NCBI GenBank assembly: GCA_027365415.1
Contig: DAHXNK010000006.1
Coordinates: 1-43,860 of the forward strand
From: Acidobacteriaceae bacterium
GTDB lineage: Bacteria; Acidobacteriota; Terriglobia; Terriglobales; Acidobacteriaceae
Length of the DNA stretch: 43,860 nucleotides
Reading direction: 5' to 3'
The notes beneath the pieces are model-generated. The model saw only the letters and a program-made list of their open reading frames with translations. It did not search any database and had not been told where the DNA came from. Shown here one piece after another: positions 34,086 through 37,174 of the stretch; within the stretch, counting starts at the first letter, position 1; every line of letters begins with the position of its first letter. A program made the translations under genes and the position numbers.

Positions 34086-35183
34086 CTAAATGGTATCAGT
34101 GATCCCCAATGGAGTTGAAGCTCGAATGTGCTGGAGCGTCGCTGCCAGATCCGCTGGGAGTGGAACCCGGAACTCCATCTGCTTTCCGGTCTCTGGATGG
34201 AGGAAACGCAATTGAGCTGCGTGGAGAAAATTTCGGTTCAGCGTAAAGCTTTCTGGCGAATGCGCGGGTTGGCGACGAGCGCGCGGCGTGGCTGCCTTCC
34301 CCGACTTGGGCGCAAGGGTCGCAACGGGAGAAACATGCTCCGGCGCTCCGTAGAGCGTGTCGCCCACCACCGGATGCCCGATGGAAGAGAGATGTACGCG
34401 AATCTGGTGCGTGCGTCCCGTCTCAATCCGCACCTCCAGCAGCGTGAATTTCCCAAACGCGCCGGTGATGCGCTCCTGCACGCGATAATGCGAGATGGCG
34501 CTACGGCCTCCGCTGCGCCGCGTGGTCATGCGCGTGCGATGCACGCGGTCGCGACGGATCGACGCATCAATGGTTCCCTTCTCGCGCTCAACGTGCCCAT
34601 GCACCAGCGCGATGTAGGTCTTCTCAATATGGCGATCGGCGAACATGGCCGCCAGATGACGATGCGCGTTGTCATGTTTTGCGACCAGAATCAGGCCGCT
34701 GGTTTGCTTGTCCAGGCGATGCACGATACCAGGGCGAATTGGCCCGGAGATGCTGGAAAGCGCGTCGAGATTGCCAAAATAATGCAGCAGCGCGTTGACC
34801 AGAGTGCCGCGACTGCGCGCATCTTCCGTTGCGCCGGAGCCAGCATGAACCATCATGCCAGCCGGCTTGTGAATGACCGCCAGATGCTCGTCCTCATACA
34901 CAATGTCGAGAGGAATGTCTTCAGCCACAGCACGCAAGGGTTCAGGGGATAGATCGCCCACCACGCTAACCTGCTCGCCCACCCGCACCTTCCACGAAGC
35001 CTTCACGCTTGCGCCATTCACCTGAACCTGGCCGCGCTCAATCCACTGCTGCACCCGCGAGCGGCTGACATCGGGCAAGTGCTGCACGAGAAATTGATCC
35101 AACCGCTGCCCAACCGCGTCGGCATCTACAGATATTTCGCGGGCAGTTGCTGGATCGAAAAATTCTGGAGATTCAGAGGCCAT
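34086..35183 (-). CDS. RluD-like 23S rRNA pseudouridine synthase
   Basis: From the ATG at 35183 the protein is 365 residues: an S4 RNA-binding domain (RLDQFLVQHL, SRSRVQQWIERGQVQVNG), then the pseudouridine synthase core with the catalytic Asp in HRLDKQTSGL, followed by TYIALVHG and ETGRTHQIRVHLSSIGHPVVGD. RluD makes pseudouridine in helix 69 of 23S rRNA. A linker with Arg/Pro (about 30 residues) sits before the last strand, FLHAAQLRF. The start overlaps the lgt end by 11 bp. Confidence 0.93.
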   Translation of the reverse strand: MASESPEFFDPATAREISVDADAVGQRLDQFLVQHLPDVSRSRVQQWIERGQVQVNGASVKASWKVRVGEQVSVVGDLSPEPLRAVAEDIPLDIVYEDEHLAVIHKPAGMMVHAGSGATEDARSRGTLVNALLHYFGNLDALSSISGPIRPGIVHRLDKQTSGLILVAKHDNAHRHLAAMFADRHIEKTYIALVHGHVEREKGTIDASIRRDRVHRTRMTTRRSGGRSAISHYRVQERITGAFGKFTLLEVRIETGRTHQIRVHLSSIGHPVVGDTLYGAPEHVSPVATLAPKSGKAATPRARRQPAHSPESFTLNRNFLHAAQLRFLHPETGKQMEFRVPLPADLAATLQHIRASTPLGITDTI

Positions 35184-35988
35184 CGGGTTCCTGTCGATGC
35201 AGTGCTTCCTGTTGATGCGGTGCGCTGCGTTCCAGCCACAGCAGCGCTCCTGCAATCACCATGACAATGGCGATGCCTTGCTGCATGGAAAGCATTCCGT
35301 GGAAAAATGTGGAATCAACATCGCCGCGAAAAAATTCAATTCCGAAGCGAACCAGTCCGTAGAAAAACAACCATGCGCCGATTGCTTCGCCCTCCTGCCG
35401 CTGCCGGGGCAGCAGCCACAGCAGAAACGCGCACAAGAAAAGCTCCGCCAGACACGCATAGAGCTGCGTGGGATGCAGGCGAATGCCCAAAGGCGTACCC
35501 GACCAATAGGTGGCCCAGGGATTGCGATAGACCACGCCCCACGGCAACGCCGTCGGCGCGCCGTAGTTGGAGCCAGCAGCAAAGGCACCGAGATTCGCAA
35601 AAACATCTGCCAGAGCCAGCGCCGGAGCCGCAGCGTCGAGGGTACGCAGCAATGGCATTTTTTTTGCGCGGAGATAAAACAATCCCGCCAACAGCGCCAG
35701 AACAAATCCGTCCAGCAGCGTGCTGCGCGACTGCGGAATGGACAGGCTGAGCATCAGCAGGGGATACCGAAGAAAATCCCGCCAGTTCTCAACCATCAGC
35801 AGCATTTTGGAACCAAGCAGCGCGCTAAAGACCACCAGCATACTTAGATTCCACATAGATTCTGGATCGATTCGCAGCCGCCGTGCCGTGTGCAAAGCTA
35901 GAAACAGCGCCGCGACCATCCCAATCGCAAGACATGCGCCATAGGTGGGCAGCGTAAAGGGGCCGAACTGAAAGAGGCGTGGATACAC
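35173..35988 (-). CDS. lgt: prolipoprotein diacylglyceryl transferase
   Basis: The 271-residue membrane protein has about seven helices and matches Lgt: LFQFGPFTLPTYGACLA at the start, and HPTQLYACLAELFL. The stretch between (FANLGAFAAGSNYG) is a shortened or altered form of the usual GRxGNFxNxE motif. It transfers diacylglycerol to the lipobox Cys of prolipoproteins. The start is GTG at 35988. Its 3' end overlaps the rluD-like start. The 6S RNA gene lies just upstream on the same strand. Confidence 0.9.
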   Translation of the reverse strand: MYPRLFQFGPFTLPTYGACLAIGMVAALFLALHTARRLRIDPESMWNLSMLVVFSALLGSKMLLMVENWRDFLRYPLLMLSLSIPQSRSTLLDGFVLALLAGLFYLRAKKMPLLRTLDAAAPALALADVFANLGAFAAGSNYGAPTALPWGVVYRNPWATYWSGTPLGIRLHPTQLYACLAELFLCAFLLWLLPRQRQEGEAIGAWLFFYGLVRFGIEFFRGDVDSTFFHGMLSMQQGIAIVMVIAGALLWLERSAPHQQEALHRQEPDGL

Positions 35989-36040
35989 AGCGGAGGTAAA
36001 TGAAAATCAATCATCAATCCAGAAAATAAAATCTGGATCA

Positions 36041-36241
36041 GGAAATAAAACCGACCCGCTGGGCCGTGCAGGAGTGCGCCGGTGAACCCGTCCTAAGACG
36101 GCGGGAACCCGCCGAGGCTCTTTAGGCGTTCCGAACTGGCGGACAGCACACCAAGCCTGTATATCGAGTCAAGTCCCCTGTTCAATGAATGTTGGTTCAA
36201 CCAGCGTGAACTCCCATACCTGCTTTGCAGGCCGGTTTCTA
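36041..36241 (-). ncRNA. ssrS: 6S RNA
   Basis: Minus-strand RNA of about 195-200 nt with the 6S fold. The closing stem pairs 36227-36238 with 36048-36059 (12 consecutive pairs, two G-U). The next arm pairs 36210-36214 with 36071-36075, 36201-36205 with 36078-36082, and 36194-36199 with 36083-36088 (one-base bulge at 36200). A large central bubble follows, with the small hairpin CGGCGGG-TT-CCCGCCG at 36099-36114 on its 3' side. The U-rich end (GGTTTTATTTCC) fits a terminator. 6S RNA binds sigma-70 RNA polymerase as an open-promoter mimic. The location just after zapA matches the zapA-ssrS order of other bacteria. Confidence 0.85.
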
Positions 36242-36247
36242 CCTTGG

Positions 36248-36276
36248 ATGCTACGGATGCACAGCGCAATTAGCAA
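36248..36276 (-). promoter_or_regulatory. promoter of the 6S RNA gene
   Basis: On the minus strand -35 TTGCTA (36271-36276) and -10 TAGCAT (36248-36253) are separated by exactly 17 bp. Transcription would start near 36241, just outside the closing stem of the 6S RNA. The match to consensus is 4 of 6 for each element. Confidence 0.5.
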
Positions 36277-36318
36277 GTGGAATCGAGCGCAGACTGCGCA
36301 TTTCTGGAATCACAGGAA

Positions 36319-36666
36319 TTATCCGGCCTTGCGCGTGCCGTCCAGCACGGCATCGAGCATTTCGGCCAGCGTCTCGGCGCGGGTCTTGATAGCCTGCTGC
36401 ATCTGGCCACTGTGCGCGTCATTTTTTTGCTGCAAAATGACCAGTTCATCAGCAATGTTCAACGCGGCTAGCACAGCGACGCGCAGGGAATCCACTGTGG
36501 TGCCCTGCTGCGCGACGGCGCGCATTTTGGCATCGACCAACGCGGCCAACTGTTGCAGATACTTTGGATCGGGGCCACGCAGATGATAGGACTGATCGTA
36601 GATATCGACGACGATGCTTTCGGCAACGATGTTCTCGCCTAAGGGGGCCTTCAAGTCTTGATCCAT
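36319..36666 (-). CDS. zapA: cell division protein ZapA
   Basis: From the ATG at 36666 (ribosome site AGGAGGAG) the protein is 115 residues. It has the ZapA fold: VVDIYDQSYHLRGPDPKYLQ, LAALVDAKMRAVAQ, and a helical C-terminus with VLAALNIADELV. ZapA cross-links FtsZ filaments at the division site. It is 25 bp downstream of the zapB-like gene and 80 bp upstream of the 6S RNA. Confidence 0.92.
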   Translation of the reverse strand: MDQDLKAPLGENIVAESIVVDIYDQSYHLRGPDPKYLQQLAALVDAKMRAVAQQGTTVDSLRVAVLAALNIADELVILQQKNDAHSGQMQQAIKTRAETLAEMLDAVLDGTRKAG

Positions 36667-36691: not shown

Positions 36692-36976
36692 TCACGAAGC
36701 GGCAATGGCATCGAGATTTTCCAGCAGTCGCTCCACGCGCTGACGCACGGCATCCCGTTCCTTGTTCAACTCGGCCAGCTCGCGGCGCAGGTCGGCCATT
36801 TCCATGCCATGCAGCTCCAGTTCTTCCTGGGCACTCGCCAGTTGCTTCTCCACCGTGGCGCGTTGTTCACGCTCCGCGCGCAGCAGATCAATGGTACGCA
36901 CCACGCGCTGTTCCAGAGCGGAAAACGTGTCCGACGTAAGGGCCAATTCTTGTTCTTTTACCGCCGTCATATTCAT
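36692..36976 (-). CDS. small coiled-coil protein, ZapB-like
   Basis: The 94-residue protein (ATG at 36976) is almost entirely heptad-repeat helix, with alternating Leu and charged residues (LEQRVVRTIDLLRAEREQRA, then ELAELNKERDAVRQRVERLL). It resembles the short coiled coils of ZapB and precedes zapA. No enzymatic motif is seen. The start is uncertain: ATG at 36970 is also in frame and neither has a good ribosome site. Confidence 0.7.
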   Translation of the reverse strand: MNMTAVKEQELALTSDTFSALEQRVVRTIDLLRAEREQRATVEKQLASAQEELELHGMEMADLRRELAELNKERDAVRQRVERLLENLDAIAAS

Positions 36977-37003
36977 AGGAGTTCGGGAAACGCTCTTGGC
37001 GCA

Positions 37004-37009
37004 AGTATA
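37004..37009 (-). promoter_or_regulatory. candidate -10 box (TATACT) for zapB-zapA
   Basis: TATACT (5 of 6 to consensus) on the minus strand would give a transcript starting near 36997, about 20 nt before the zapB-like ATG. The -35 region (around 37027-37033) is T-rich and weak. The remainder of 36977-37174 shows no gene. Confidence 0.35.
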
Positions 37010-37174
37010 GCGCGGGTATAAAAAAATAAACAGAAAGTATTTGTTCAAAACGTTTGAGGGAATCTCTTCCGCTCGTAGATTGTCTGGATTCTTCGCAACG
37101 CCTGCCCGGAACAAAGCCGAAGGGCGCAGAATGACTCTGTTGTTATTGGGAGGGAACGGAGGGTGCGAGGCGAG

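Follow-up and report, generated by a model that had tools for sequence, protein, structure and literature searches.

Surveys of 6S RNA across bacterial phyla exist. According to PMC8876501 and PMC8414754, the studied 6S RNAs bind the housekeeping RNA polymerase via a bubble in their structure and are freed when the polymerase copies this bubble into a product RNA (pRNA). PMC8414754 describes a conserved A that flanks the pRNA start, together with a GG at pRNA positions 4/5 or 5/6. The gene order zapB-zapA-ssrS is known in beta- and gamma-proteobacteria, as described in the available part of PMC7641849. Among the titles listed by searches of the open-licence literature, none concerned acidobacterial 6S RNA (including Koribacter), and prior publication elsewhere is possible.

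The window (the complete stretch of 43,860 nucleotides analysed here) showed a match to the Rfam family RF00013 (6S/SsrS) on the minus strand at positions 36049-36236 in a whole-window Rfam search, with 51.8 bits against a gathering score of 46.4 and an E-value of 1.3e-7. The alignment covered the full model (positions 1-187). No other Rfam family reached its gathering score in the window, and RF00013 was again the only family up to E 10 when 35900-36400 (501 bases) was searched with permissive filters. This full-length match above the gathering score bore out the minus-strand 6S RNA gene proposed by a sequence-only reading of the window, which had suggested this covariance-model search on the minus strand. 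The score was just 5 bits above the cut-off and lower than those of the relatives L001 (94 bits) and L002 (76.9 bits). A covariance model of the window's own family (R1), with the window sequence in its training set, gave 182.3 bits at 36041-36244. Searches with RF00013 and R1 found one 6S match in the organism's own genome and no second copy. The best explanation, at a probability of roughly 97%, is that the locus is the organism's 6S RNA gene, with its own predicted promoter in the gap between zapA and lgt, and encodes a rod-like RNA, about 200 nt long, which by analogy would mimic an open promoter. Family match, covarying structure, promoter conservation and the one copy found in the own genome are the established part of this reading. 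The features concerned are as follows.

36041 to 36241, minus strand: 6S RNA (ssrS) transcript, predicted limits (RF00013, R1 and fold; both ends predicted)
36319 to 36663, minus strand: zapA, upstream neighbour (PF05164, 70.2 bits, E 1.9e-19)
35173 to 35988, minus strand: lgt, downstream neighbour (PF01790, 139.1 bits, E 2e-40)
36271 to 36276, minus strand: -35 element TTGCTA (TTGC or TTGT 17-18 bp from TAGCAT in 28/32 family loci)
36248 to 36253, minus strand: -10 element TAGCAT (exact in 28/32 family loci)
36227 to 36239, minus strand: 5' strand of the closing stem (fold; helix 1, with 98% of cells paired and double changes in 6/11 pairs)
about 36179 to 36193, minus strand: 5' side of the central bubble, with the predicted pRNA start at template base 36191 (unpaired in the fold; conserved GAACC, then CAACA-type bases)
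36103 to 36178, minus strand: apical arm with terminal loop (fold; helices 5-7 of the covariation analysis)
36089 to 36100, minus strand: short 3'-bubble hairpin, CGUC/GACG (fold; double changes in 4/4 pairs, 83.9% of cells paired)
36047 to 36059, minus strand: 3' strand of the closing stem, continuing into the U-rich end (fold, terminator scan)
36191 to 36205, plus strand: predicted pRNA GUUGGUUCAACCAGC, antisense to the 6S RNA (GG at positions 4/5, A next to the start)

The predicted RNA had a free energy of -87 kcal/mol (z = -3.97), with 1 of 200 shuffles at least as stable, and its fold showed every part of the 6S rod: the closing stem, the central bubble and the apical arm. It resembled the RNAs of RF00013 in its length and rod shape, and also in having a closing stem, a central bubble and a conserved helix by the bubble. 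The closing stem had been described with 12 pairs; the stem itself was recovered, with 13 pairs (36239-36227 with 36059-36047), and was followed by further helices, including 36216-36210/36075-36069, 36206-36200/36083-36077 and, beside the bubble, 36198-36194/36088-36084. A second arm was likewise present, with pair runs of 9, 1, 3, 5, 5, 3 and 1 instead of the proposed 5+5+6. The central bubble with a GC hairpin on its 3' side appeared in the fold as claimed, the hairpin consisting of the 4 pairs 36100-36097/36092-36089. A small 3'-bubble hairpin is shared with B. subtilis 6S-1, in which it is predicted already in the free RNA (available part of PMC8876501). The U-rich end was also found as described, with GGUUUUAUUU directly 3' of the closing stem; a terminator scan reported two overlapping terminator-like sites, both on the 6S strand, against 0.7 expected in the region. 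Between the end of the 6S RNA and lgt, an AT-rich hairpin (GAUCCAGA/UCUGGAUU) was observed on the minus strand at 36016-36039, a stretch that is identical in the same-genus genome G001.

Covariation was analyzed in an alignment of 32 sequences from the window's own family. A first consensus comprised 47 pairs, 22 of them with kept double changes; dropping one isolated pair and adding the bubble hairpin yielded a revised structure of 50 pairs, in which 96.0% of pair cells were standard pairs. Changes on both sides occurred in 25 of the 50 pairs and in 102 cells, compared with shuffled means of 11.2 and 29.1; none of 500 shuffles reached either value. When the partners were shifted by 1-3 columns, paired cells fell to 31-47%; both controls favour the 50-pair structure, since it was derived from the same 32 sequences. 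Helix 4, beside the bubble, was nearly invariant, so that covariation is uninformative for this helix. Covariation in homologous loci, which the sequence-only reading had named as a check, was thus strong. Four open reading frames of at least 20 amino acids touch 36041-36250, encoding 58 and 35 amino acids on the minus strand and 133 and 54 on the plus strand. As to the statement that no protein explains these bases, a protein-coding explanation through these overlapping frames of 35-133 amino acids is considered unlikely, while the pairing is conserved as RNA.

In the window, TTGCTA and TAGCAT are separated by a spacer of 17 bp. In 28 of 32 family loci, TAGCAT was located 10-14 nt ahead of the model start and was always accompanied by TTGC or TTGT, with a spacer of 17 bp in 22 and 18 bp in 6 of these loci; the remaining four lacked an exact TAGCAT. 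When the upstream sequences were shuffled 500 times by mononucleotide, TAGCAT occurred with a mean of 0.12 and a maximum of 1. A plain sigma-70 consensus scan of the window region reported no promoter, and support for the promoter therefore comes from conservation and not from consensus. The proposed promoter with 17-bp spacing is thus putative, with conserved elements and spacing on one side and no report by the plain scan on the other. From the positions of the two elements (36276-36271 and 36253-36248), a transcription start near 36241 is predicted.

At the predicted pRNA start, a flanking A was present in 29/32 family loci. GG at pRNA positions 4/5 was present in 32/32, although this GG belongs to the motif that anchors the count. 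The bases of the window fit a GG at positions 4/5 and a probable plus-strand start at 36191. In PMC8414754, the 6S RNAs with GG at 4/5, the arrangement of the window, include those from E. coli, A. aeolicus and R. sphaeroides; the lactic acid bacteria group, near which B. subtilis 6S-1 is placed, has GG at 5/6. By analogy with the studied 6S RNAs, from which expression, polymerase binding, pRNA start and release are predicted for the window 6S RNA, its central bubble would imitate an open promoter and bind the housekeeping RNA polymerase holoenzyme. Under nutrient shortage, the bound 6S RNA would lower transcription; upon nutrient resupply, the polymerase may start at about 36191 and copy the bubble into a short pRNA, which would unwind the adjoining helix (GAACC/GGUUC) and so release the enzyme.

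The location between zapA and lgt was confirmed by the PF05164 and PF01790 matches, both on the minus strand. On the same strand, pheT, a coiled-coil gene and zapA precede the 6S RNA, which is followed by lgt and a pseudouridine synthase with PF00849 and PF01479, presumably RluD-like. The Lgt protein of the window was 87% identical to that of the Acidobacteria bacterium isolate LSA3.bin29 (contig JAJZIJ010000003.1), the nearest among the named contigs listed in one contig scan. The coiled-coil gene (36692-37045, minus strand) gave a weak ZapB match (23.2 bits against a cut-off of 31.5), and a relative of it adjoins zapA in many family loci; it is possibly a ZapB-like partner. The zapA neighbourhood had been called the classic 6S position, and zapA indeed lies upstream here, as it does for beta- and gamma-proteobacterial ssrS (available part of PMC7641849). 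Unlike RF00013 6S/SsrS RNAs with fau/ygfA or an EVE gene, the window RNA has lgt directly downstream.

The count of gene order on the 6S strand took a single locus from each of 35 family genomes and left out L042, L067 and L069-L071, which are further copies of these loci. As some of these loci end at a contig end, neighbours can be missed in the counts, which gave zapA at most 400 nt upstream in 23/35, lgt at most 200 nt downstream in 27/35 and both in 18/35. In other family loci, one or both neighbours were farther off or outside the fetched stretch; in G027, the 6S RNA is on contig C11 and zapA on C1. In class relatives outside the family, a metallophosphoesterase gene (TIGR00282, named after the L054 protein, which scored 255.6 bits with the cut-off at 254.15) followed the 6S RNA in 5/7 loci (L002, L008, L035, L039, L040), three of which (L002, L008, L035) showed the order zapA-6S-TIGR00282. 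In the other two (L004, L013), no query gene was found after the 6S RNA.

These gene orders bear on whether the RNA could instead be another structured RNA, or the leader of the lgt mRNA, with a chance resemblance to 6S RNA. On the strand of the RNA, the lgt reading frame (35988) starts about 52 nt past its predicted 3' end, so that read-through of the RNA into lgt is possible. Against this reading, RF00013 aligns over its full length with no further Rfam family, and outside the family the gene after the RNA is of the TIGR00282 type rather than lgt in five of seven loci, which indicates that the RNA is not tied to lgt; the probability of such a chance resemblance is therefore very low. A 6S pseudogene or non-working remnant, as a score close to the cut-off might suggest, is still less probable, with promoter, closing stem, bubble and hairpin intact, TTGC, TAGCAT and pairing kept in G001, and no second copy found in the own genome. 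The 6S RNA of the window is a regular, ordinary member of its family in an Acidobacteriota genome.

Among 61 genomes (the own genome and 60 relatives), RF00013 matched 38 at E ≤ 0.001, 33 of them over the cut-off. At the same threshold, 197/248 genomes of an order sample were matched (174 over the cut-off), and RF00013 matched 203/299 genomes of a class sample (142 over the cut-off); both samples were searched with strict filters at a completeness of at least 90%, and some members were missed. One of these was G034, matched in the 61-genome search and missed in the order sample. The matched genomes listed in the order sample were all in the window's family (f1), in which RF00013 and R1 combined detected 6S RNA in 35/37 genomes. 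The other two (G022, G036) showed neither a credible 6S match nor a zapA match in searches with RF00013, R1, the class-wide covariance model R2 and zapA, an absence that fits assembly gaps. G019 and G027 were missed by the RF00013 genome searches and found with R1; the zapA locus of G019 scored 51.5 bits in a direct Rfam scan. R1, trained on f1 only, detected 7/7 tested loci that lie outside f1, each with an E-value of at most 2.4e-8. In the order sample, G163 and G259 each carried two RF00013 matches. In G163 the two scored equally (C45:115634-115825 and C67:3-194, one at a contig end), which points either to duplication of the 6S gene or to a duplicate made in assembly.

In the sister family f2, genome-wide searches did not detect 6S RNA in any of 14 genomes, with best E-values of 0.97 (RF00013), 0.16 (R1) and 0.46 (R2). 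The neighbouring genes were found: zapA in 14/14 genomes (loci L051-L059, L061-L064 and L066) and lgt in 12/14 (14 loci, L084-L097). None of the 14 zapA loci showed 6S RNA by R1, Rfam (E up to 1) or R2. With R1 filters off, a search of 13 of 21 zapA loci, including 9 of the 14 from f2, produced no score above 9.0 bits for f2 or above 12.4 bits overall. At the 14 lgt loci, the best results were 11.6 bits (E 0.08) with R1 and 5.9 bits (E 2.4) with R2, and Rfam reported no 6S RNA. In 10/14 genomes, a TIGR00282 gene on the zapA strand began no more than 215 nt after zapA, with gaps of 3, 8, 13, 14, 63, 65, 123, 152, 192 and 215 nt; the six gaps of at most 65 nt leave no room for a 6S RNA. Of the remaining genomes, one had the TIGR00282 gene 701 nt off, and in three the fetched flank yielded no such gene. 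Since class relatives have the order zapA-6S-TIGR00282, a deletion explains these loci most simply. G051 (f3) and G053 (f5), which have no 6S match, showed gaps of 16 and 93 nt; little weight should be given to an absence from single genomes beyond f2, because another f5 genome, G324, carries a 6S match in the class sample.

These results favour, with moderate confidence, loss of 6S RNA from the whole of f2, in several members visibly by a deletion between zapA and the TIGR00282 gene. A moved and strongly diverged f2 gene is a less probable alternative: a first genome-wide look can miss real members, as for G019, candidates scored per genome with R1/R2 numbered at most about 93-102, completeness is below 90% in 7 of the 14 f2 genomes, and even in the window's family, 6S RNA is not always beside zapA (G027). 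Loss of 6S RNA from f2, if confirmed, would provide a natural comparison between relatives that have and that lack 6S control of RNA polymerase, from which the need for this RNA could be judged. For a little-studied lineage of Acidobacteriota, the window 6S RNA supplies the expected global regulator, together with its predicted promoter, likely pRNA and gene order.
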